DNA of 64,000 nt. Source: Vallitalea guaymasensis. GTDB lineage: Bacteria; Bacillota; Clostridia; Lachnospirales; Vallitaleaceae. The notes beneath the pieces are model-generated. The model searched no databases. It worked only from the letters and a program-made list of their open reading frames with translations, and was not told the DNA's origin. Below, piece by piece: positions 6,744 through 57,315 of the stretch; position 1 is the stretch's first letter; every line of letters starts with the position of its first letter. Made by a program: the position numbers and the translations under genes. Location of the stretch: NCBI RefSeq assembly GCF_018141425.1, contig NZ_CP058561.1, positions 1,984,001 to 2,048,000 of the forward strand. Reading direction: 5' to 3'.

Positions 6744-8258
6744 TTGAAGGATATTAATACTATTATTAACAACAAAAGATTGTCTGGCATATTACTACAC
6801 CCCACATCTCTTCCAAGTAAATATGGTATAGGTGATTTAGGCAGTGGTGCATATGACTTTATTGATTTTCTAGTTAAAAGCAATCAAAAGCTTTGGCAGG
6901 TACTGCCATTAGGTCATACAGGTTTTGGAGATTCTCCATATCAATCCTTTTCGTCTTTTGCGGGACAGCCGTTAATTATAAGCCCAGAAATATTAATTGA
7001 AGCAGGTTTGATTGATCCTGAAGACACTAAGCCTATTCATGCTCACCAATCCCATAACATAGATTACGGCTCAGTAATTAATTACAAATTCTCTATCTTG
7101 AAAAAAGCTTATGACAACTTTCTAAAAACCAATGATAATTCTTTATATAATGATTGGTTAACCTTTTGTAATGATGAAAAATATTGGCTTGATGATTACT
7201 CCTTGTTTATGGCTTGCAAAGATTATTTTGATGGTAGAATGTGGCCCTGTTGGGATAGTGAAATAGCTCATCCTTCAAAAGGCAGTATACTGGTGTGGAT
7301 TAATAAGTTATCCTATGATATAGATTTCTATAAATTCATTCAATTCATTTTTTATGAACAGTGGAACAAAGTTAAGAAGTATGCTAATGAACATGGCATA
7401 CTCATTATCGGAGATATACCTATATTTACTTCTTTTGACAGTAGTGATGTATGGGCTGACAAAGAGTTGTTTTTATTGGATTCTAAGGGATATCCAACCC
7501 ATGTAGCTGGTGTTCCTCCTGATTATTTTAGTCCTACAGGACAATTATGGGGAAATCCATTGTACCATTGGGATAATCATAGAAAAACATCCTATAGATG
7601 GTGGATAAGCAGATTGGCTCATACCCTAAAATTGGTTGATATCGTGAGGATTGATCATTTCAGGGGTTTTGAGAGTTATTGGTCCATTCCTTATGGTAAT
7701 GAAACTGCAATCAAGGGTACTTGGAAAAAAGGACCTAACAAAGAACTATTCAACGCTTTTATCAATGCACTGGGAACCGAATTACCTATTATTGCAGAAG
7801 ATCTTGGAATAATAACAGATGAAGTAAAAAAATTAAGAGATGATTTTAATCTTCCGGGTATGAAAATATTACAGTTTGCTTTTGAAGATTTGGAAGACAA
7901 TGATTTTCTACCTCATAATTATGGTTCTAACAGCATCTGCTACAGTGGTACACACGACAATGATACAACTGTTGGATGGTATAATAAAGCTGATAGGATG
8001 AAACAAGATAAAGTCAGGCGATATATGAACACTGATGGAAGGAACATTTCTTGGGACTTCATTAGAGCTTGTTATGGTTCAGTCTCCAAGATGGCAATAG
8101 TCCCACTTCAGGATATTCTATCTCTGGATAGCCATGCAAGGATGAATATTCCAGGTTCATCCATGGGCAACTGGCAATGGAGATACACCAGTGACATGTT
8201 GACTGATGATATCGCTGACAGGTTAAGAGAGATTACGAAATTATATGGAAGAGATTAA
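6744..8258 (+). CDS. malQ: 4-alpha-glucanotransferase (amylomaltase, GH77)
   Basis: The enzyme transfers glucan chains between maltodextrins in the cytoplasm and releases glucose, serving glycogen or maltodextrin use. It has the GH77 entry motif LHPTSLPSKYGIGDLG, the nucleophile segment VRIDHFRGFESYW, the acid/base segment IIAEDLGI, and the third acidic site in GTHDNDTTVGWY. The length of 504 is normal. The start is TTG, supported by AGGAGGG seven bases upstream and no better ATG. It is a single gene, with the acyltransferase 241 bases downstream. Confidence 0.95.
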   Translation: MKDINTIINNKRLSGILLHPTSLPSKYGIGDLGSGAYDFIDFLVKSNQKLWQVLPLGHTGFGDSPYQSFSSFAGQPLIISPEILIEAGLIDPEDTKPIHAHQSHNIDYGSVINYKFSILKKAYDNFLKTNDNSLYNDWLTFCNDEKYWLDDYSLFMACKDYFDGRMWPCWDSEIAHPSKGSILVWINKLSYDIDFYKFIQFIFYEQWNKVKKYANEHGILIIGDIPIFTSFDSSDVWADKELFLLDSKGYPTHVAGVPPDYFSPTGQLWGNPLYHWDNHRKTSYRWWISRLAHTLKLVDIVRIDHFRGFESYWSIPYGNETAIKGTWKKGPNKELFNAFINALGTELPIIAEDLGIITDEVKKLRDDFNLPGMKILQFAFEDLEDNDFLPHNYGSNSICYSGTHDNDTTVGWYNKADRMKQDKVRRYMNTDGRNISWDFIRACYGSVSKMAIVPLQDILSLDSHARMNIPGSSMGNWQWRYTSDMLTDDIADRLREITKLYGRD

Positions 8259-8342
8259 CAAATAAGTAAACTCCATCTTAAAAACTATAGCGATTTTTAG
8301 ATATTAATGATATAATTATGTTACATGTATAAGATATTTTTA

Positions 8343-8447
8343 TATAAGCTTAAGAGTCAAGTGTTATGTGATTTATTTTACTTGTATTTTGAAGGATTAT
8401 CTTTTGTAAAATGAACCACATAACTCTTTCTGTCTCATAAGCTTATA
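8343..8447. repeat. Interrupted inverted repeat between malQ and plsC
   Basis: TATAAGCTTA at 8343-8352 pairs with TAAGCTTATA at 8438-8447, and GTTATGTG at 8363-8370 pairs with CACATAAC at 8417-8424. Together they give a roughly 28-bp bulged arm around a loop of about 46 bases. No T-run follows, so it is not a standard terminator. It may be a leader structure of the downstream gene or a small palindromic repeat. Confidence 0.55.
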
Positions 8448-8499
8448 ATCAAAACATATACTTATAATGTATATAAAATTATCAGGATAAGGTGATTGT

Positions 8500-9216
8500 A
8501 TGCGTGCAGTAATTATAGTAATTTTTATGGCTATTTATTTGATTCTTGCTTTACCTGTACTTATCATAGGTTTTATAGCAGGCTTGTTTTCCAAAGATGC
8601 TCAATATAAGATTGGAAAATTCATTGTGACACATATATGTAGAGGTATCATGTTTTTAACAGGAAGTAGAGTTAATATAACTGGATTAGAAAATATCCCA
8701 AATGAAACTGTACTATTCGTGGGCAATCATAGAAGCATATTTGATGTTGTTCTATTGATTAAAGTCATTAATCGTCCTTTTGGTTTTATTGGAAAAAAAG
8801 AATTGACAAAAGTTCCTTACTTGAATCTATTACTAAAATTGATGGGTGGATTATTCCTTGACAGAACTAATTTCAGGGAAGGTCTGAAAATAATCCTAGC
8901 TGGTATAGAAATGTTGAAATCAGGTCTATCAATGCTAATTTTCCCTGAAGGCACTAGAAACAAAGAATCTGAAGAGCCTTTACCTTTCAAACAAGGTAGC
9001 TTGAAGTTAGCAGAAAAAGCTAATGTACCTATTATACCATTTGGCATAAAAGGAACAGATAATATCTTTGAAAACAATAATGGTGTTGTTGTAAAACCAA
9101 GCAAAGTAACGCTTAATTTTGGTAAACCTATTCTTTTAAGTGAATTGCCACAAGAGGATATGAAAAAAAGTGCTGTTTATGTTCGTTCTGAAATCCTCCA
9201 ATTACTTTCTAAGTAG
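8500..9216 (+). CDS. plsC: 1-acyl-sn-glycerol-3-phosphate acyltransferase (PlsC family)
   Basis: The product probably acylates lysophosphatidate to phosphatidate at the cytoplasmic membrane. An N-terminal hydrophobic segment covers about residues 3-27. The acyltransferase motifs are present in order: NHRSIFD (NHX4D), the substrate segment LFLDRTN, FPEGTRNK, and the proline-containing VPIIPFGI. The length of 238 is typical. ATG follows AAGGTGATTGT. A strong terminator follows, so it is monocistronic. Other members of this fold use different acyl acceptors, so the exact substrate is inferred. Confidence 0.9.
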   Translation: MRAVIIVIFMAIYLILALPVLIIGFIAGLFSKDAQYKIGKFIVTHICRGIMFLTGSRVNITGLENIPNETVLFVGNHRSIFDVVLLIKVINRPFGFIGKKELTKVPYLNLLLKLMGGLFLDRTNFREGLKIILAGIEMLKSGLSMLIFPEGTRNKESEEPLPFKQGSLKLAEKANVPIIPFGIKGTDNIFENNNGVVVKPSKVTLNFGKPILLSELPQEDMKKSAVYVRSEILQLLSK

Positions 9217-9245
9217 GATAGTAAAACTGAAAAACTATAAAATGC

Positions 9246-9288
9246 AGAGGAAATTTGATGTTTTAGCAAATTTCCTCTTTGATTTTTA
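9246..9288 (+). terminator. Terminator after plsC
   Basis: A perfect 12-bp stem, AGAGGAAATTTG at 9246 and CAAATTTCCTCT at 9267, has a 9-base loop and is followed by TTGATTTTT. Confidence 0.85.
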
Positions 9289-9350
9289 TGTAATTAATGA
9301 TAGAATATATAGAACGCACTAATAAGTATCTTTTCAAAGGAGGTGCACCT

Positions 9351-9734
9351 ATGGAGTGGTGGGAAATTCTATTGCTTGTATTAGGAATTATTGTTGTTGT
9401 ATTTGCTATCCTTTATTTTGTAGGAAGAAAGTTACAAGGTAAAGCTAATGACCAGCAATCAGTAATTAATCAAAACAAAATGACAACATCTATACTTGTT
9501 ATAGATAAGAAGAAACAGAAAGTAAAAGATTCTAATTTGCCAAAAATGGTACAAGACCAAATTCCAAAATACATTCGTTTTAGAAAATTACCTATGGTAA
9601 AAGCAAAAATCGGTCCTAAAATTACTACTTTATTGTGTGATGACAAGGTATTCAAAGAATTGCCTGTTAAGAAAATGGTAAAAGTAGATTTAGCTGGTAT
9701 GTATATAGTCGGAATGAAAGGCTATAAAAAATAA
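9351..9734 (+). CDS. Small membrane-anchored protein of unknown function
   Basis: I chose the ATG at 9351, giving 127 residues, because AAAGGAGG lies eight bases before it; an upstream in-frame start at 9297 has no such site. One transmembrane helix covers about residues 5-25 (ILLLVLGIIVVVFAILYFVG). A basic cytoplasmic-type domain follows, rich in lysine, with no catalytic motif I recognise (KMTTSILVIDKKKQKVKDS). It ends at a bidirectional terminator shared with pyrG. Similar short single-pass proteins occur in clostridia, but I cannot name a function. Confidence 0.75.
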   Translation: MEWWEILLLVLGIIVVVFAILYFVGRKLQGKANDQQSVINQNKMTTSILVIDKKKQKVKDSNLPKMVQDQIPKYIRFRKLPMVKAKIGPKITTLLCDDKVFKELPVKKMVKVDLAGMYIVGMKGYKK

Positions 9735-9736
9735 GA

Positions 9737-11369
<1,633 letters not shown>

Positions 11370-11400
11370 TCATAGTCTTTTTTTATTTAAATGATTACTC

Positions 11401-11444
11401 TATAAAAAGTAGTCTAAACAATTTTGTTCTTACTACTTTTTATA
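11401..11444 (-). promoter_or_regulatory. Long AT-rich hairpin in the pyrG leader
   Basis: Arms 11401-11420 and 11425-11444 pair over 20 positions with a 3-base internal mismatch and a 4-base loop; the outer 12 bp (TATAAAAAGTAG) are perfect. In the pyrG direction there is no U-run after it, so it does not look like an intrinsic terminator. It could be a leader control element or mark the end of the upstream ctpA transcript. Confidence 0.55.
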
Positions 11445-11533
11445 ATGAACCTTATATACTTTTGGGTTATCAATTTCTATTTTATACAACCTCTTTATTT
11501 TATTATTAGTTAGTGAAATAGTCAATAACAAAT

Positions 11534-12931
11534 TTAATTTTCGTTTATTTTACTTAAAATTACTTCCATAGCCTTCTCTAATTGTATATCTTTTTTGTTA
11601 ATACTTTCAATTAATTTTGTATTGAGTGCTTTTAGAGTTGGATGGTCTGAAACTCCATATGCTCTTAATCCCATATTTTTCTGAAACTGTGTTATAGCCT
11701 TCTCAGTCTTTTCATCGTACAGATTATCTGGTTCATTAATAGCATAACCCAAATATTCTAAAATTAATTCAACATTTTTGACTTCTTCCATTTCGTCATC
11801 CAAAAATAGTCTTTCTGGACTGACAATTAGATTAGGTACTATCACTTCATAATCTGGAGCAACACCTATACCATTTATTTTGTGCCCATCTCTTGATAAA
11901 AATTCCTCCATAGTTAATTTTATAGAATATTTATCTGATATATCATAAATATACTGTGCTACACCTTTTCCATAGGTTGTTTCTCCAACTGTAACACCTA
12001 CACCTGATTCTTTTACAGCTGCTGCAATGAATTCAGAAGCTGAAGCTGTATTCTCATTAGTAAGTACTACCAGTTCAAAAGGAGCTTTTCTTAGATTACT
12101 TCTATAAGTTATTTTTCTTCCCTCTTTATTGACAAAATGAAGAACTGGTCCCTTAGGTATTAACATATTACATAGAGCCACTCCTGAATCAACATATCCT
12201 CCTAGGTTATCTCTAAGATCAAGAATCAAATATTTGACTCCTTCTTTCTTAGCATCCTCTAGGTAGGGTTCTATATCTTCAGCTACATTTTTATTGATAG
12301 AATTTATTCTTATATAATTTATCTTCTTGGCTACTTCTTTATCCAACTTAGGGAATAAATCATTAATTTCTTCAGTCTCAACAGCTGATATTTTTACTAA
12401 GGCTCTTTTTATATCAACTGTATATTCCTTGTTCCCTCTTTTGAAGGTAACAGAGACCATAGTTCCCTCTTTACCTTTCATCTTATTAGCCGCATCTGTA
12501 GGTGTATAATTCTCTGCACTTTCTCCATTGATTGCAATTATAATATCTTCCGCTCTAACTCCCGCTTTTATAGCTGGTGATTTTGGTATAGGACGGGATA
12601 CCTTTACCCAATCTCCATCTTGTACTATCTCAACACCAATACCTACAAATTCACCTGATATTGCCTCAATCAAGGTGTTTGCTTCTTTCTTGGTATAGAA
12701 TGTTGAGTAAGGGTCTAATTCATCAAACATACCATCTATAGCTGCCTTGAATAACTGTTCATCTGTTACTTCCTCACCTACATAATTATCCCTTATTAGG
12801 CTAAACAATACTTTGAATTCTTCCCCTTTACGCTCAACAGCTACTGAATCTACTGCTTTCACGTTGATAGGTACTATCAACATGGATAATACAACTGCTG
12901 TAAGAACAATCCTGTTAATTATTTTTTTCAT
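11534..12931 (-). CDS. ctpA: S41 family C-terminal processing protease (CtpA-like)
   Basis: A secreted or membrane-tethered serine protease of 465 residues. An N-terminal signal segment (about 5-25) is followed by the TSP cap region, a PDZ domain near 90-180 (GIGVEIVQDG, SPAIKAGVRAEDIIIAING), and the S41 catalytic domain. The nucleophile is in TASASEFIAAAV and the catalytic lysine in GETTYGKGVAQ. The C-terminus carries a peptidoglycan-binding type 1 domain (ELILEYLGYAINEPDNLYDEK region), typical of clostridial and Bacillus CtpA. It is the last gene after two SLH proteins on the same strand, 76 bases behind the nearer one, suggesting a cell-wall role. Confidence 0.93.
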   Translation of the reverse strand: MKKIINRIVLTAVVLSMLIVPINVKAVDSVAVERKGEEFKVLFSLIRDNYVGEEVTDEQLFKAAIDGMFDELDPYSTFYTKKEANTLIEAISGEFVGIGVEIVQDGDWVKVSRPIPKSPAIKAGVRAEDIIIAINGESAENYTPTDAANKMKGKEGTMVSVTFKRGNKEYTVDIKRALVKISAVETEEINDLFPKLDKEVAKKINYIRINSINKNVAEDIEPYLEDAKKEGVKYLILDLRDNLGGYVDSGVALCNMLIPKGPVLHFVNKEGRKITYRSNLRKAPFELVVLTNENTASASEFIAAAVKESGVGVTVGETTYGKGVAQYIYDISDKYSIKLTMEEFLSRDGHKINGIGVAPDYEVIVPNLIVSPERLFLDDEMEEVKNVELILEYLGYAINEPDNLYDEKTEKAITQFQKNMGLRAYGVSDHPTLKALNTKLIESINKKDIQLEKAMEVILSKINEN

Positions 12932-43730: not shown

Positions 43731-45473
43731 TCAGTATTTATCTTTGTAATATGCTTTAATTGGTATTTTTATAATCACCTTTGTCCCTTTATCAGGTTTA
43801 CTCTCAATAGTAACCCCGCTCAAACTTCCATAATACAATTTTACCCTTTGGTCAACATTGTACAACCCTATATGATCATCATTTGTCTTAGACAGAGCTT
43901 CTTCTATCTGTTCCTCATTCATACCTATACCATTATCCAATACCTCAAAATACAGATTATCCTCTTTTCTGTATCCTCTTATTATCAGCATACCTTTTTC
44001 ATCTATATTCTCAAATCCATGAACTATGGCATTTTCTACTATTGGCTGTAGTATCAGCTTAGGTATATAGTATCCTAGAGTTTCATCATCTGTAGCTATA
44101 TTGACGTCAAACCCATCATTATATCTTATCTTCTGTATTTCAAGATAATTGTTTATCAAATCCAAGTTGTCTTTTACTGTCAAGAATTCTTGTTCACAGT
44201 TGATACTATTCCTCAACAGACTTCCCAGTTGAGTTGCAATAACTCCTATTTCTTTTACATTATTGAGTTTTGCAATCCATTTTATAGCGTCAAGTGTATT
44301 ATATAGAAAATGTGGTTTAATCTGTGCTTGAAGTATATTTATTTCTGCAATTCTTAATCTACGTTGTTTATCAATTGCATTATCTATAGATTCCTTTAAT
44401 CTCACTACCATCTGGTTAAAACTGTTTTCAAGCATACCCAGCTCATCATTACGATGAAGGTTGATTTGGATTGTCAAGTCTCCTTCCTCAACTCTTTTCA
44501 TACTTTTTACGAGTTTTTTAATAGGTCTAATCATATAGTTTGCCACTATGAGCGAGATAAGCACTGCAAGAGTTAGGCTTATTAATAAACTCTGTATAAT
44601 CGTTTTCCGTATATTGCTGTTATTCTGTTGTACTATATTCAGTGGAACAGTGGCAACCGTTCTTAATGTGGAAGGTTCATATGTGTAATAGACCATAAAA
44701 CTTGGTATTTTATTATTTTCTCTTATATTTATTTTGCCCTTATTATTTTTGGCTACTGTATCTCTATATGGTGAATCCCAAAAAAGTCCTTCTTTTTCAG
44801 GATGATTAGCGTCTGTAATAATATAATAGAATTCATCCAATAACATGACATCTATTAATTTACTGTTTCCTATAGTGTTTATAATATCTACTATGGCATT
44901 TCTCTTGATATCTATGATTATATAACCTACAGGGTTATTATTGTTGTCGTATATTTTTTTCCCCATGGAAAATACAATGGTTTCACCCATATTGTTAGTG
45001 AATTTTTCTGGATATAAAACTATTTCTTTGTCTTCATCCATCTTTCTGAAGACTCCCCAGCCATTTTGCAGATTATTTTTATACATCTGGGGTAGTGGGG
45101 ATGTTTCAAATATTGCATTACCTTTTGTATCTAATATATATATTGGAAATTTATACTTTTTACTTGCTAACAATAAGTATATTTTTTGATTGATTTCGTA
45201 GTAGTAGTCGTCTGATATTTCATTCCCTGACAAAGTTTTATGAAGTTTAGAATCTGTGCTTATCATGTTAACGATGGTTTTATATTCATTAAGGAAGGTA
45301 TCTATATTTTTATTGATGTTGATTAAGCTGTCGTAGGCTTCATCATATATTGCGTCTTGTAAAATTTTTGACGAGAAAGTGAATCCTAGAAGGGTTAGGA
45401 CTAGGGGTGGTATGATACCGATTAGAATGAAGATGATTAATAGTTTGCGGAACAAAGTTCTTTTAGGTTTCAT
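43731..45473 (-). CDS. YesM-type sensor histidine kinase
   Basis: The 580-residue kinase has a membrane helix near residues 10-30, a dCache-like outside sensor region to about 280, a second helix, a HAMP linker (YMIRPIKKLVKSMKRVEEGD), the phosphoacceptor motif QIKPHFLYNTLDAIKW, and an ATPase domain with ENAIVHGFEN and DNGIGM. ATG follows AGAGGGTTTGTCA. It lies upstream of the AraC-type regulator and about 90 bases downstream of hairpin element 1. The signal is probably a solute linked to the adjacent importer. Confidence 0.92.
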   Translation of the reverse strand: MKPKRTLFRKLLIIFILIGIIPPLVLTLLGFTFSSKILQDAIYDEAYDSLININKNIDTFLNEYKTIVNMISTDSKLHKTLSGNEISDDYYYEINQKIYLLLASKKYKFPIYILDTKGNAIFETSPLPQMYKNNLQNGWGVFRKMDEDKEIVLYPEKFTNNMGETIVFSMGKKIYDNNNNPVGYIIIDIKRNAIVDIINTIGNSKLIDVMLLDEFYYIITDANHPEKEGLFWDSPYRDTVAKNNKGKINIRENNKIPSFMVYYTYEPSTLRTVATVPLNIVQQNNSNIRKTIIQSLLISLTLAVLISLIVANYMIRPIKKLVKSMKRVEEGDLTIQINLHRNDELGMLENSFNQMVVRLKESIDNAIDKQRRLRIAEINILQAQIKPHFLYNTLDAIKWIAKLNNVKEIGVIATQLGSLLRNSINCEQEFLTVKDNLDLINNYLEIQKIRYNDGFDVNIATDDETLGYYIPKLILQPIVENAIVHGFENIDEKGMLIIRGYRKEDNLYFEVLDNGIGMNEEQIEEALSKTNDDHIGLYNVDQRVKLYYGSLSGVTIESKPDKGTKVIIKIPIKAYYKDKY

Positions 45474-45787
45474 TTGACAAACCCTCTTTCTGTTGGAGGT
45501 AGTAAGTTTAATGAATAGGTATGGTAAATAAAATTCGTAGGTGATTTTGTTTTTGGCTAGAGGGTGTATAATAGTTGTATTTTACTTGCCTTACCCTGAG
45601 AAGCGGTCGGTCTGCGTAAAATACAACTATTATACACGGTTTATTGCCGAACATTACGTTTGGTGTGTAAAATTATATATGTGCTTGCTTATGTGTGGTT
45701 GTTAAATTTAAGTATAGTATTTAATAATAATTACTTTTATGATAGTTTAGTTTATTATGGTTGTGGTTTTTTATTTTTTTTATTGTA
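45474..45787. other. Spacer holding hairpin element 1
   Basis: The 314-bp gap holds the hairpin at 45564-45637. The rest is strongly T/G-rich on the plus strand and contains no gene I can support. The kinase promoter is not obvious. Confidence 0.6.
45564..45637. repeat. Hairpin element 1 (perfect 22-bp stem, 30-nt shared loop)
   Basis: Arms 45564-45585 and 45616-45637 are perfectly complementary over 22 bases, starting GTGTATAATAG and ending CTATTATACAC. The loop 45586-45615 is GC-rich (contains ACCCTGAGAAGCGGTCGG) and is identical, in reverse complement, to the loop of element 2. GGCTAGAGG lies just outside the left arm. No T-run follows either end. It sits 150 bases beyond the PHP gene stop. 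Confidence 0.92.
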
Positions 45788-46528
45788 TTATTTTATGGTA
45801 TACATTTTTGTTTCGGGGATGTTGAGGTTGTTTATTGTTGATAGGGGGTATTTTAGGTTGCATATTTCGTTTTTTTTGTGGCAGTCGCTGCCTAGGGAAA
45901 AGAGAATGTTTTTCTTCAAGGCTTTTTTAAGGAAATTGGTGTTTGGTTCTTTCCAGAGACCGCTTATTTCTATTGCTACTTGGTGTTTTTCGCATAGAGT
46001 TAGTAGTTCTTCTTCCCATGTGTTGATGTAGTCGGTATCTATTAGTTGTTCGTAGAATGGTAGTACGGTACAATGTCCTAGGATATCGACTCTGGTTCTT
46101 TGGAAGGTTTTTGTTATGGTTTCAAGTATGCCTTCTAGTATGTATCTGGAATCGGTTGTTTTGTAGTCTTGTTTGTAGTTGTCTCTGTGTCCTGCTCTAT
46201 ATCCGAAATATTCGGCTAACCAAGTACGTTGGTTTATGGTATCGTTGTAAGTGTGTACACTTGATATTACGTAATCTAGTTTGCCTAGTATTTTATCGGA
46301 CCATTTAGTGTAGTCTCCTATGTTGGCTTCTACGCCTTTGTAAACATTGTATTGTTCTAATTTGTCAAGGTACTCCTCTATAGCACTCTCGGTAGTCATT
46401 TTAGAGCAGAAAACATGATCAGAGATGCCAATCTTGTATCCTAATCCATCTGCTACTTGAAGTATTTCTTCAACAGTGGCATCTCCATCCGAAAAAAGGG
46501 TATGTGTATGTAAATCTATTACGTCCAT
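45788..46528 (-). CDS. PHP-domain phosphoesterase
   Basis: The 246-residue protein (ATG at 46528 behind AAAGGAAC) has all PHP metal-site motifs: DLHTHTLFSDGDATVEEIL, IGISDHVF, YKGVEANIGD, VISSVHTYND, DILGHCTVLPF and SLGSDCHKK. The family hydrolyses phosphoesters, for example histidinol phosphate or nucleotide bisphosphates. It lies between the ABC permease gene and the sensor kinase, flanked on both sides by paired hairpins. Its coding strand is unusually A/C-rich compared with neighbours. It may dephosphorylate the solute taken up by the importer; this is inference from position. Confidence 0.88.
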   Translation of the reverse strand: MDVIDLHTHTLFSDGDATVEEILQVADGLGYKIGISDHVFCSKMTTESAIEEYLDKLEQYNVYKGVEANIGDYTKWSDKILGKLDYVISSVHTYNDTINQRTWLAEYFGYRAGHRDNYKQDYKTTDSRYILEGILETITKTFQRTRVDILGHCTVLPFYEQLIDTDYINTWEEELLTLCEKHQVAIEISGLWKEPNTNFLKKALKKNILFSLGSDCHKKNEICNLKYPLSTINNLNIPETKMYTIK

Positions 46529-46671
46529 AATCACTGTTCCTTTCAAATATATATCATTTTCAAGTTATCTCTTTAATAAATTAAATTCTTTTTATATTAT
46601 ATCTAATATATTTTAGCCACGCAATATAATTATGCATATCTCCATTATTTAGAAAAATAAACTCTAGCCAA
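46529..46671 (-). promoter_or_regulatory. Spacer upstream of the PHP gene
   Basis: AT-rich spacer between the PHP start and hairpin element 2. It could hold a promoter, but no clear -35/-10 pair is visible. Confidence 0.25.
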
Positions 46672-46747
46672 GTGTAAATAATCCTTCGTTTTACGCAGAC
46701 CGACCGCTTCTCAGGGTAAGGCAAGTAAAATGAAGGATTATTTACAC
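46672..46747. repeat. Hairpin element 2 (23-bp stem, same loop inverted)
   Basis: Arms 46672-46694 and 46725-46747 pair over 23 bases with one mismatch, beginning GTGTAAATAATCCTTC and ending in ATTATTTACAC. Loop 46695-46724 is the exact reverse complement of the element 1 loop, and identity continues into the inner stem for 43 bases in total. CTCTAGCCAA lies just before the left arm, and GCA after the right arm. It sits between the permease stop and the PHP start. Confidence 0.92.
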
Positions 46748-46772
46748 GCACCATCCCACTATAATCTAATAT

Positions 46773-48425
46773 CTACATAGTTATTCCTTTACCACCAGAT
46801 ATCTTATTGAATATCAAAATAGATACAATAGTAGTAACAGTCAATATAGAAGCTAACGCCGCCGCAGTACCAAAACTTGCTCTGACAACTTCTGTATAGA
46901 TAGCAACTGAAATAGTAGCCGTTTTACCAGTATACAGGATAACACTGGAACTTAATTCATTTATAGTAGTAATCCAGCTAAGTATAGCTCCAGATAATAC
47001 TCCAGGTGCCATTAACCTTGCAGTAGTCTTGAAGAAAGTCTTCATAGGCGAAACCCCTAGATTGATAGAAGCCTCTTCTATACTAGGATCTATCTGATAT
47101 AATATAGCTGTACTTGACCTAATGGTATAAGGCAGTTTCCTGATAACATATGCAATTATCAAAATCCATGCTGTACCAGCTAGCATAACTGGTCCCTTGT
47201 TGAATGCTACGAGAAGACTGATACCAAGTACCGCTCCTGGAATAACATAAGGGAACATAATCAATATATCAAGCAAGCTGTTAACTTTTGATTTCTTTCT
47301 TACTATTAAATAAGATAATAGTAATCCTGCAATAACCATTATTATGATAGCTATTGTTGAATATAGGAATGTATTAGATATATTAGTGGATAATTTACTA
47401 ATAATCATTTTATAACTATCAAGGCTGAAACCTTTTACAAAGATAGGTCCGTTAGTTTTGATAAATGAAGTTATGACAACTACAACTTGTTGTATCATAG
47501 CAATACCCGCTATAATTAAACAGAACGCTGTTAATCCTATTCTTTTGCCTTTTGTCAATTTTACAACTTTAGGTGGTCTAAGTGAACTCATCATATAGCT
47601 TTTTTTGGCAATTACTAGTTTCTGAACTAGTAAAATCGCTACAGCACAAATGATTATAATAACACTTAACATACTTGCTATTGTAGCATTACCGCCGATT
47701 TCACTCATATATTCTTCATATATCAGTACAGGCAATACTTTGTATCCTTCACCTATTAACATAGGTGTACCGAAATCAGCTAGAGATGTCATGAATACCA
47801 TTAATGCTCCTGCTGTTATAGTAGGTAGTATTAGTGGAAAAGTAATAGTAAATAGTTTTTTGATTCCAGATACCCCTAAGTTTTCTGCTGCCTCTTCAAT
47901 TGATGAGTCCATACTCTTGAGAGCTCCTGAAACAAAGAGATAAACATAAGGAAAGAACTTCAATGTGAATACTAATACTATACCTGTCCATCCATATATA
48001 GTTGGTAATTCTATTCCAATATTTCTAAAGATATTAGTCAAGAATCCATTTCTACCAAGTAATAATATCCAAGAATATGCCCCAATGAATGGTGGTGATA
48101 ATAGGGATAGAATAATCATTATATTAATTAATGGCTTACCCCATACATTATAACGTGTTGTTATGTATGCCATTGGAAGACCTATTAATGTTGATAGAAT
48201 AGTTGCTGTAATTACAACAGATAAACTATTGAAAAGTGTTTTATAATAATATGGGTATTTGAAAAATTCTAAGTAATTGGCAATTGTAAATCCACCTGTC
48301 TCTTGTGAAACAAAACTCTCTCTAAGCATTGAGAAGAAAGGATATATCAATACTACAGCTAATGTAGCGAATGCAACGATTCTTACTACATTCCAGAAAT
48401 TAAAGAATTTCCTTATTCGTTTCAT
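46773..48425 (-). CDS. Iron(III)-type ABC transporter permease, fused two-domain
   Basis: The 550-residue protein has two tandem permease domains, each with about six helices and an EAA loop: EEAAENLGVSGIKKLFTITFPLILP in the first half and EEASINLGVSPMKTFFKTTARLMAPG in the second. This FbpB-like layout serves iron(III), and also phosphonate or sugar-phosphate, importers. Its ATG overlaps the ATPase stop by one base (TAATG), so the pair is translationally coupled. Confidence 0.92.
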   Translation of the reverse strand: MKRIRKFFNFWNVVRIVAFATLAVVLIYPFFSMLRESFVSQETGGFTIANYLEFFKYPYYYKTLFNSLSVVITATILSTLIGLPMAYITTRYNVWGKPLINIMIILSLLSPPFIGAYSWILLLGRNGFLTNIFRNIGIELPTIYGWTGIVLVFTLKFFPYVYLFVSGALKSMDSSIEEAAENLGVSGIKKLFTITFPLILPTITAGALMVFMTSLADFGTPMLIGEGYKVLPVLIYEEYMSEIGGNATIASMLSVIIIICAVAILLVQKLVIAKKSYMMSSLRPPKVVKLTKGKRIGLTAFCLIIAGIAMIQQVVVVITSFIKTNGPIFVKGFSLDSYKMIISKLSTNISNTFLYSTIAIIIMVIAGLLLSYLIVRKKSKVNSLLDILIMFPYVIPGAVLGISLLVAFNKGPVMLAGTAWILIIAYVIRKLPYTIRSSTAILYQIDPSIEEASINLGVSPMKTFFKTTARLMAPGVLSGAILSWITTINELSSSVILYTGKTATISVAIYTEVVRASFGTAAALASILTVTTIVSILIFNKISGGKGITM

Positions 48426-54740: not shown

Positions 54741-55742
54741 TTAACTTATTTCCAAAGTTTTCTTTAATTCTTTAACAAATTTTTCTTTTTTATCTTTCTG
54801 ATTTATTAACTTATTTAGTTTAATCAAACTTTGTTTTGGCTTCCATGCCCTGTTAAGGTTAAAATAATAATTACTTATTTTCCAGAATTTCTCTGGATAC
54901 ATTATAAGGTATAGAAGTATGTTTAATTCTTCTTTACTTAAAGAGTTGATACTTATGTATTTGTCAATAGCTTTAATACCCAATTTTATGTTCCAATCAT
55001 TTTTTTCTAATACTTTTCTTAGCAAACGATATAAATCTATAACTGGGATATCAATATTACAATATTCAAAGTTCATGGTATATAATTTCTTATTGCTTAC
55101 CAGTATATTATGATGTATGTATTGTCCATGTATAATAACATTTTTACTGTGATATTTATTTACTAGATTATTGTATTCTGATAATTCTATTAGTGAAAGT
55201 GCTTCCACTGCCTTCTGGTAATAGTAATTGAAACTACTCAAAAAACAGATATCAAACTCAGACCATTTACCAATCTTTCTTATTTTATTCCTGATTCTAA
55301 CCAACTCAACATTATGTCTTTCCAATTTATTCGGTAATGTACCTAATTTTACATAATTTTTATATCTGTTACCTCTTGAAAAGTTAGTACCACATTTATG
55401 TAATACAGCTAGATTCTTTACAGAATCAAATATCTCTTCTTCATCATTGAAAAAGATTTCTCTTCCGTTAACCCAATTTTTCATTATGTACATGGTACCG
55501 TCATCTTCAAAATAAGGATTATTCTCTTTCGTTAGTGCTAACCTATCAATATTTCTGAATCCTTTGTTATGTAGATATTCTTCTATTTCATACATAAATT
55601 TTATTTTTTCTCGATGCATTCGGATTTCCTTAAATAATTTCAAACCCTTATTAGTATCTAATATATAAGCTCCTCGTCCTTTATAACCGTTTTTTACTTT
55701 AACATCAAATTGTTCAAAAATGTTATTGTATTCCTCAAGCAT
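54741..55742 (-). CDS. cotS: CotS-family spore coat protein, probable pseudokinase
   Basis: The 333-residue protein has the aminoglycoside-phosphotransferase-like fold of the CotS coat family (YKGRGAYILDTNKGLKLFKE, MYIMKNWVNGREIFFNDE, NLAVLHKCG). The usual catalytic HGDxxxxN is HGQYIHHN here, near residue 206, and the metal-binding DFD is NFE (NFEYCNIDIPVIDLYRLLRK). Both acidic residues needed for phosphotransfer are thus replaced. It lies 83 bases before the gerA2 operon on the same strand. A structural or scaffolding role in the coat is likely. Confidence 0.85.
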   Translation of the reverse strand: MLEEYNNIFEQFDVKVKNGYKGRGAYILDTNKGLKLFKEIRMHREKIKFMYEIEEYLHNKGFRNIDRLALTKENNPYFEDDGTMYIMKNWVNGREIFFNDEEEIFDSVKNLAVLHKCGTNFSRGNRYKNYVKLGTLPNKLERHNVELVRIRNKIRKIGKWSEFDICFLSSFNYYYQKAVEALSLIELSEYNNLVNKYHSKNVIIHGQYIHHNILVSNKKLYTMNFEYCNIDIPVIDLYRLLRKVLEKNDWNIKLGIKAIDKYISINSLSKEELNILLYLIMYPEKFWKISNYYFNLNRAWKPKQSLIKLNKLINQKDKKEKFVKELKKTLEIS

Positions 55743-55891
55743 CTAATCACCCCAACTTAGCCCTAACTATAATATTTTTTTATCAGTATCCTAGACATCT
55801 ATACCTAATGCCCTACTTTAAAATATATGAAGAAGTCAAGCAGATTATGAGGACAGGAAATTAATATTTTACTATATTGGTATAAGCAAAA

Positions 55892-55947
55892 CAAAAAACC
55901 CCAATATATTGTATTGCTTTTTTTCAAACAACAATATATTGGGGTTT
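55892..55947 (-). terminator. Terminator after the CCA-adding enzyme gene
   Basis: A perfect 17-bp stem (arms 55896-55912 and 55931-55947, core CCCCAATATATTGT) is followed in the minus direction by TTTTTTGTTTTG. Confidence 0.9.
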
Positions 55948-55974
55948 CAAAATTATAATAAATTATAAATATTT

Positions 55975-57315
55975 TTATTCTTTTATTTCATCCACTATCC
56001 TTAACAACTCTTCTTTGTCATTTCTATTTGGTTCTTCAATGACTATATCCAATAGTTTATTAAGAATAATTCCTATCTGACGACCTTCTTTTATACCATG
56101 TTCCATCAAGTCTCTTCCATCAACCTTAAGTTCTCTTATGCTTATACACTGTTCTTTCTCTTTAATCTCTGCGTATTTCTTTTCAGCATTGTAGAGCTTC
56201 AACATTCTACCATCCAACTTGTCAGGGTTTTGAGCCTTGATATCTGCTCTTTGAACAAGTACGAAGTCATGAAATAGCTCATGTCCTAACTTCTTTAATA
56301 GTCTTCTTATACTTTTTGAGCTATTTTCCAATCTGATATCATGGAATTCTATTAACTTGACAACTTTATCAATAGTCTTATTATCAAATTTTAATCTCTT
56401 GAGAATATCATTCGCCATCTTTGCACTGATACCTTCATGTCCATAGAAATGATCTATACCCGATTCGTCAGTAGTCTTTACTCTTGGTTTTCCAATATCA
56501 TGCAGCAACATGGTCCATCTAAGTGCTTTATCAGCCTTTATAGCGTTAACAGACCTAAGAATGTGATCATGAATATCATAGCTATGATAAGGGTGATTCT
56601 GGGAATTACCTATACAAGGTATGAACTCAGGTAATATATACTCCATTAGATTGCAATGATATATCTCCATAATCATATTAGGGTTATTGGATATGAGTGT
56701 CTTGTTAAGTTCCACTTGTATCCGTTCCATACTGACATTTTTAATAAGTGATGAGCACTCTGTTATAGCATCTCTAGTCTTTTTATCTATTTTATAACCC
56801 AATTGAGCTGAAAATCTAATGGCTCTTAACATTCTAAGTGCATCTTCATTAAATCTTTCTATTGGATTACCAACACAACGGATAATACCCTTTTCCAAAT
56901 CTTCTATACCACTAAAAGCATCTACTAATCCTGTTATATGGTTATAAGCCATAGCATTTATAGTAAAATCTCTTCTTTTAAGGTCTTCTACCAGATTATT
57001 AGTGAATTCAACGGAGTTAGGTCTCCTATTATCTTCATATTCCCCATCAATTCTATATGTTGTAACTTCAATAGGGTGTTTATCCATAAGTATGGTAACA
57101 GTACCATGCTGCAACCCTGTATCTATGGTTTTGGTAAATAATTTCTTAACTTGATTAGGTAATGCGGAAGTCGTTATATCCCAATCATTAGGTTTTTTAC
57201 CTATGATACTATCTCTTACGCATCCTCCAACCAAATATGCCTCATACCCATTGTCAGTCAGTTTATCTATTATTTTCTTGGCATAATTAGGCATATCTAT
57301 TTTAACTTTATTCAT
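55975..57315 (-). CDS. cca: CCA tRNA nucleotidyltransferase with HD domain
   Basis: The enzyme adds or repairs the CCA end of tRNAs. The polymerase-beta type core has YLVGGCVRDSIIGKKPNDWDITTSA with its two aspartates, and the second block RRDFTINAMAYN, with RRD. An HD domain lies near 250-340 (WTMLLHDIGKPRVKTTD, FYGHEGISAKMANDILKRL, LIEFHDIRLE). The ATG at 57315 (446 residues) follows AGAGGA. Plain poly(A) polymerases lack this context; CCA addition is the better call. It follows manA by 26 bases. Confidence 0.9.
   Translation of the reverse strand: MNKVKIDMPNYAKKIIDKLTDNGYEAYLVGGCVRDSIIGKKPNDWDITTSALPNQVKKLFTKTIDTGLQHGTVTILMDKHPIEVTTYRIDGEYEDNRRPNSVEFTNNLVEDLKRRDFTINAMAYNHITGLVDAFSGIEDLEKGIIRCVGNPIERFNEDALRMLRAIRFSAQLGYKIDKKTRDAITECSSLIKNVSMERIQVELNKTLISNNPNMIMEIYHCNLMEYILPEFIPCIGNSQNHPYHSYDIHDHILRSVNAIKADKALRWTMLLHDIGKPRVKTTDESGIDHFYGHEGISAKMANDILKRLKFDNKTIDKVVKLIEFHDIRLENSSKSIRRLLKKLGHELFHDFVLVQRADIKAQNPDKLDGRMLKLYNAEKKYAEIKEKEQCISIRELKVDGRDLMEHGIKEGRQIGIILNKLLDIVIEEPNRNDKEELLRIVDEIKE

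Follow-up and report, generated by a model that had tools for sequence, protein, structure and literature searches.

The window analysed here, the whole stretch of 64,000 nucleotides, corresponds to bases 1984001-2048000 of the single 5.63 Mb contig of Vallitalea guaymasensis (genome G000). In it a 252-amino acid ORF, named the PHP gene in a preliminary description of this DNA, lies between two long hairpins. The features discussed below are as follows:

43731..45473, minus strand: ORF of 580 aa, sensor histidine kinase-like (by eye), adjoining element 1
45564..45637, plus strand: hairpin element 1, a 22-bp stem (45564-45585/45616-45637) with a 30-nt loop (45586-45615); 86.6 bits with model R2
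45579..45621, plus strand: arm of a 43-nt exact inverted repeat, pairing with 46689-46731
45788..46546, minus strand: ORF of 252 aa, putative PHP gene, between both elements
46672..46747, minus strand: hairpin element 2, 23-nt arms (46672-46694/46725-46747) with one mismatch; 81.6 bits with model R2
46689..46731, minus strand: arm of the 43-nt exact inverted repeat, pairing with 45579-45621
46773..48425, minus strand: ORF of 550 aa, ABC permease-like (by eye); element 2 starts 26 nt past its stop, in sense
45250..46300, plus strand: composition footprint of element 1, positive GC skew
46375..46999, minus strand: footprint of element 2, weak and opposite, plus-strand skew of -0.19 to -0.24 (window mean -0.165)
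8358..8428, plus strand: weak relative, probably decayed, with 87% complementarity between its 23-nt arms; 33.3 bits (24.7 for the opposite strand)

The hairpin coordinates of the preliminary description proved correct, as did its claim that an identical core lies in opposite orientations around the PHP gene, the 43-nt arms being 100% complementary. Each outer stem is self-complementary, as had also been stated, over 22 nt (100%) in element 1 and 23 nt (96%) in element 2, the arms being 30 nt apart in both. The loop of element 1, which is antisense to the neighbouring ORFs, reads TTGCCTTAC, mini-hairpin, CGGTCTGC, and the same 30-nt loop occupies 46695-46724 of element 2 on the minus strand. 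The statement that the two stems are unrelated holds for their middles, which differ, and fails for their ends, which share a GTGTA start and an ATTTTAC end when read 5'-3' on the loop strand. Folding of the loop strand as single-stranded DNA gave z = -6.15 for element 1 and -5.03 for element 2, with 0 of 200 shuffles as good, and the 22-nt core, present twice in the window, averaged 0.00 matches over 100 shuffles. The decayed relative has the loop TTGTATTTTGAAGGATTATCTTTT and outer arms TATAAGCTTAAGAGTCA/TGTCTCATAAGCTTATA.

Both belong to a family of hairpins that is interspersed, oriented and lineage-restricted. The loop had been suspected of being a mobile core, and dispersed it is: at three or fewer mismatches the 22-nt pattern occurs at 21 places in the genome, both window copies included, and its reversed control at none. 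Of the 96 genomes examined for the 30-nt pattern, 5 have it, and these are of the same genus; a degenerate pattern run over a named genome collection gave 26 stretches, every one from Vallitalea sp. With a covariance model, matches appeared in 10 of the 22 genomes of the taxonomic family: 43 in G000 and between 20 and 46 per genome in the five other members of Vallitalea (32 in G001 and 22 in G002). Of 16 genomes outside the genus, four had matches, numbering 47, 3, 4 and 1. A scan of 391 genomes of the class with model R2 under strict filters, in which 12 candidates were scored per genome, matched the genome of origin alone and gave only 12 matches there. Viral contigs (exact degenerate pattern), plasmids and phages contained no match to the family, which is so far known from Vallitalea and a few relatives only. 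A literature search of incomplete coverage found no account of the hairpin family or of a footprint such as that described below.

The stem varies in sequence and measures 17-25 bp among the copies found, mostly 21-24. What divergent copies have in common is the internal loop, in which CGGTC faces GCCTTAC or GCCTTTC; the mini-hairpin at the tip varies, and by eye some copies possess an additional outer helix. The positions of 107 distinct copies, arrays and orthologues included, were classified on the basis of simple ORF calls (80 aa or longer). In co-directional gaps 45 lie in sense and 13 antisense; 31 are convergent, 6 divergent, 4 inside small ORFs and 8 at edges, the orientation counts omitting the last two classes. 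L001 and L013, with decayed stems, stand outside the 107. For G000 by itself, 16 of the 20 copies in co-directional gaps are in sense and 4 antisense (p=0.012).

Tandem arrays of hairpins occur in G001, G002 and G004. That at L128:1465-2530 (G004) consists of six hairpins, four in the same orientation ~195 nt apart followed by two inverted ones, and is flanked by EF-Tu-like and S10-like ORFs (by eye), an S10 leader being detected there in the Rfam scan; L129, L130 and L131 have similar plus-then-minus arrangements. In G000, locus L224 (C1:2427800-2430100) holds four further places like the L141 element within 1.2 kb, one on the plus strand and three on the minus strand.

The copies of a second genus, at loci L146, L147 and L198-L216 of G009 and L079, L089 and L098 of G014, form a near-uniform unit of ~200 nt with outer arms AAAAGCATTTTTTCT / AGAAAAAATGCTTTT and the loop GCCTTAC/CGGTC as in Vallitalea. 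Among 29 rows, one of them too short for the test, a sequence repeated on both sides scored above all 100 shuffles in 9 of 28, two of the nine being neighbouring copies in L213; by eye the two-sided repeat is a terminator-like hairpin in several rows. A long autonomous form in G009 was considered and discarded: the outer-end pattern has 100 places (12 in the control), mostly pairs ~115 nt apart by eye, with no evident long unit.

A selfish, non-autonomous repeat of the MITE or REP kind, devoid of host function and with arms kept equal by template switching only, would account for the many copies in unrelated flanks, for the tandem arrays, for the near-uniform unit and two-sided repeats of G009 and G014, and for the orthologous sites without an element in G003, G002 and G001. 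We consider this quite conceivable, although short of probable, since the loop and tip pair stay conserved beside flanks depleted in C. Nor do the transposases speak for it. Scanning with R2 (E up to 1) of four Y1 (RAYT-type) loci, L168, L153, L154 and L148, the first being the 254-aa Y1 gene of G000 together with flanks of 1.3 and 1.8 kb, revealed no flanking hairpins; and the Y1 transposase, found in 17 of 22 genomes, was rejected as a partner because it was not found in G001 and G002, which bear hairpins. As for a MITE target site duplication, no clean short one was seen by eye in Vallitalea, where element-free sites exist.

The exact 43-nt inverted repeat had led to the suggestion that recombination between the loops could invert the PHP gene, making it a switch. 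In G004 both hairpins occupy the same two gaps in the same orientations, with different stems and a loop type of their own, and the gene itself is oriented alike; in G003 the gene order of the locus is unchanged and neither hairpin is present. Inversion is therefore not supported, both orientations of the segment not having been found between the genomes compared (G000, G003 and G004). Recombination from loop to loop would, moreover, be expected to swap the stem halves and so break both stems, and we regard an invertible switch as very improbable.

Joint changes on the two sides of a stem are commonly taken to prove a functional RNA. That independent drift would not leave such stems intact, as the preliminary description had argued, is borne out: 98.3% of 540 stem cells are paired, and 137 cells have changed on both sides. 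Among 30 copies, changes on both sides were seen in 16 of the 18 pairs, and 0 of 500 shuffles reached any of five measures of covariation. In a more diverse set of 33 copies the stem is 97.6% paired, although one of the five measures, further pair types, is not above shuffles there (388 of 500). At the tip, pair 35-47 is Watson-Crick in all 33 (CG 17, UA 14, AU 2) and pair 36-45 is formed in 32, with a third pair, 37-44, in 10. The 91 distinct stems comprise 1803 cells, of which 1762 are Watson-Crick, 6 G.T, 16 A.C and 19 other mismatches. The stem finder penalised G.T less, yet G.T stayed rarer than A.C; the pairing therefore looks to be maintained as DNA rather than RNA, and a DNA-level cause looks the better explanation of the stems than selection on an RNA.

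Orthologous copies give a view of how the stems change. Among the G000-G005 pairs listed (flanks 74-98% alike), the stems are identical or differ on one side. Among the G000-G003 pairs listed (flanks 72-94% alike), both arms have changed in four of six, namely L003/L169, L015/L028, L019/L170 and L020/L144, of which only L015/L028 matched in both flanks; L016/L033 changed on one side and L017/L048 has the same stem. Of the two options originally put forward, maintenance of the stems is thus supported, because both arms have changed together in some of these orthologues, and placement of the core into ready-made palindromes is not needed. Among the G000 copies with the loop CTCTG..CGATC (L015-L021) the tip pair is T-A in L015, L016 and L017, and it is still C-G in their G003 orthologues L028, L033 and L048, as if the T-A variant had spread among the G000 loci.

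A function at the RNA level in 3' untranslated or intercistronic regions, as an mRNA stabiliser, a processing site or a protein-binding hairpin, would fit the covarying mini-hairpin at the tip and the 16 of 20 co-directional G000 copies that are in sense to both neighbours, usually ~80 nt or less past the upstream stop. REP/BIME hairpins are described as having such RNA roles in enteric bacteria. Selection on an RNA tolerates G.U, whereas G.U is not favoured over A.C in these stems (6 vs 16). Element 1 and three other G000 copies are, in addition, antisense to both neighbours and still have the composition footprint, which is strong in element 1 and L138, confined to one side in L139 and weak in L008. 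By eye, a terminator-like hairpin with a T run already precedes the element in L050 and L128, and the hairpins have no Rfam match at gathering score. On balance we think an RNA role rather unlikely.

The footprint is a difference in composition between the two strands. In 300-nt bins the two highest positive GC skews of the window (+0.38 and +0.47) fall at 45250..46300, around element 1, and in 250-nt bins the skew there reaches +0.57, despite the long ORFs that run on the minus strand across this region. Within 200 nt of the G000 copies the GC skew of the loop strand rises from 0.19 to 0.50, in 29 of 30 copies (p=3.7e-9). With 32 copies oriented by loop strand, the skew climbs from ~0.2 at 1 kb to 0.59 on the left and 0.51 on the right in the first 100 nt; C falls from ~0.13 to 0.07, and G increases from ~0.19 to 0.26 (left) and 0.22 (right). 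The near skew likewise exceeds the far skew in G003 (11 of 12, p=0.001), G005 (9 of 9, p=0.004), G002 (5 of 6, p=0.06) and G004 (18 of 18, p=7.6e-6, many of these copies lying in arrays and so not being independent). These paired tests used the copies with 1 kb on both sides, that is 30 of 31 in G000, 12 of 16 in G003, 9 of 15 in G005, 6 of 11 in G002 and 18 of 19 in G004. On average, five of six Vallitalea genomes show enrichment in G and depletion in C on the loop strand over ~400 nt on both sides; G001 has a footprint only in the first 100 nt upstream, and G009 has none.

Control positions behave differently from the elements. Twenty-four gene ends without elements stay at a skew of 0.15-0.34, and 22 element-free intergenic centres have a mean contrast of 0.10, with one at 0.31 or above. 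The mean at 1409 random positions is 0.025 as compared with 0.314 for the elements, and the highest of 100000 resampled means, each from 30 positions, is 0.138. The window also contains an element-free intergenic stretch, 55500-56000, with strong negative skew (-0.49 vs -0.07) and C-rich parts, which could be the scar of a lost element.

The footprint follows the orientation of the hairpin and not the direction of the genes. It is tied to the strand of the element because elements 1 and 2, 1.1 kb apart, have opposite skew, that of element 2 being weak. At third codon positions of antisense genes in G000 the skew is +0.71 within 150 nt (189 sites) vs +0.43 at 500-1000 nt. Replication direction as the sole cause is disfavoured, because most copies that stand against the surrounding skew retain a positive skew near the element; the exceptions are L140 on the right (-0.25) and L139 on the left (-0.05), and L008 is weak on both sides (0.12/0.18).

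We might expect a similar picture if elements inserted or survived preferentially in DNA of already high skew, rather than causing it. The opposite skews at the PHP locus match the orientations of the two elements, and the skew is highest at the element and falls off in either direction; neither observation favours such a preference. Further evidence comes from substitutions, only partly polarised, that were read against element-free relatives. The PHP part at 45788-46300 is skewed in G000 and G004, with the element, and not in G003, without it; from G003 to G000 it has 48 A>G vs 3 G>A, and 24 C>T vs 6 T>C. Near and far counts at this locus are 117:29 vs 114:69 (p=4e-4), with 46300-46546 (15:13) and 46547-46772 (1:2) omitted as being near element 2. 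At L060, which has no element in G002 and has apparently lost it in G005, the counts are 80:10 near vs 164:110 far (p=1.3e-7), the far class omitting 1-1500 and 7900-12000 (a second element, then a biased stretch at 9450-11200).

The third locus, L141, is mixed: G003 is as skewed as G000 (53:50) without an element, G001 (91:12) and G002 (83:24) differ, and the gene end has a skew of 0.73-0.80 in element-free genomes too. L060, for its part, also has skew away from its elements. Its stretch 9450-11200, inside two overlapping ORFs, shows A>G 97 vs G>A 23 (~fourfold) against G002; no long hairpin was found in it and the nearest element is 0.9-2.6 kb away, and the A>G bias is therefore not unique to the elements. 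An unrelated repeat of ~210 nt, found at more than 20 other G000 places at 84-93% identity, lies at L060:8917-9130 and has no Rfam match at gathering score. L138 was dropped as a further comparison since G003 carries a copy there too. The comparison shows an excess of A>G and C>T over hairpin-free genomes at two loci, with the third mixed. The footprint is strong on average, but the case for cause and effect is built on these two clear loci and the mixed one. A preference for DNA already skewed, for which L141 and the distant skew of L060 speak, appears unlikely to us.

The substitutions also have a bearing on the agent. Per site, A>G (109 of 507) is about as frequent as C>T (43 of 175); neighbouring bases have a moderate effect, up to ~threefold, and there is no single motif, a pattern more in keeping with one-strand polymerase errors than with a deaminase. 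The same strand is hit on both sides, as would be expected if the hairpin were the midpoint of a gap, a bubble or a resynthesised tract. A double-strand break followed by resection does not fit, since the sign would then flip across the hairpin. Transcription-linked R-loops, in which the displaced loop strand would fold, trap an RNA:DNA hybrid and be damaged, would also strike one strand on both sides and would go with the sense bias of the copies. Antisense copies such as element 1 have the footprint too and would need antisense transcripts. Spontaneous damage to single strands favours C, whereas A>G is here as frequent per site as C>T, and R-loops seem to us distinctly unlikely.

From the measured family, DNA-level pairing and footprint we infer a chain of events of the following kind. 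The loop strand would fold, in replication gaps or as a cruciform, and a putative trans-acting protein would recognise the conserved internal loop. Recognition would bring about, time after time, events on one strand of the surrounding DNA (nicking, strand displacement or long-patch resynthesis), and polymerase errors or damage on that single strand would produce A>G and C>T. A polymerase crossing the hairpin could switch template and copy one arm from the other, so that the arms would stay complementary and G.U would not be favoured. Candidate outcomes are mobility, the homogenisation of loops, and a site for replication or repair. No protein partner was found, and the sense bias in G000 (16 of 20) would equally follow from an RNA role. 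That the family is a recognised DNA hairpin at which one strand is recurrently exposed or resynthesised, with a putative enzyme involved, we rate as evenly balanced between right and wrong. The fuller proposal is tentative, and we put it forward as a possibility: the hairpins may be fixed, oriented sites of a new DNA-processing system, whose putative trans-acting enzyme would read the folded loop strand and recurrently open or resynthesise one strand for ~400 nt on both sides, so that each copy would be a local, strand-specific source of mutation that rewrites neighbouring genes and copies one arm onto the other. Such a footprint would bias the way in which the proteins of adjacent genes evolve, and it would be a sign of an undescribed enzyme acting on DNA hairpins.

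Among known systems, intrinsic terminators are a poor match, with 0 sites in 45400-46900 vs 0.8 expected in a scan that allows loops of 3-8 only, and no T run by eye after either stem of elements 1 and 2. Rfam 15 gave no match to the elements at gathering score in the window segment 45000-47200, eight loci and, further, L060; the miRNA families listed over the elements in that segment were below their own gathering scores. The family may be called interspersed palindromic repeat-like by analogy and, if folded as single-stranded DNA, attC- or REP-like, and we do not class it as REP, attC, terminator or Rfam family. The REP/BIME/REPIN sequences of the Gammaproteobacteria, with their RAYT, are likewise short hairpins built on a conserved core, oriented and interspersed between genes, and occur in pairs and arrays; the Vallitalea hairpins are indeed short, extragenic, interspersed palindromes in many copies; they differ in their free, covarying stem sequence and strand-specific composition footprint. 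Integron attC sites resemble them in that they too are single strands folded into hairpins, variable in sequence but conserved at unpaired positions; they are set apart by their setting, a cassette array behind an integrase, whereas the Vallitalea copies are dispersed.

Closer in behaviour are the inverted repeats maintained by template switching (quasipalindromes), the arms of which are kept complementary by joint change at the DNA level, and joint arm change with no preference for G.U is what the Vallitalea stems display. Template switching has been proposed for the maintenance of RNA hairpins, in an account that treats RNA genes (PMC8794818); the Vallitalea hairpins differ from these in forming a single repeat family whose loop is conserved and whose flanks bear a footprint. 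Since the lack of a G.U preference points to a DNA-level cause, the family is a natural test of template-switch maintenance. Lastly, the strand asymmetry of replication (GC and purine skew, PolC/DnaE in the Firmicutes) shares with the footprint more G and less C on one strand, whereas the skew in Vallitalea is local, centred on the hairpin and set by its orientation; a one-strand footprint around a short repeat would be the local, element-centred counterpart of replication skew.
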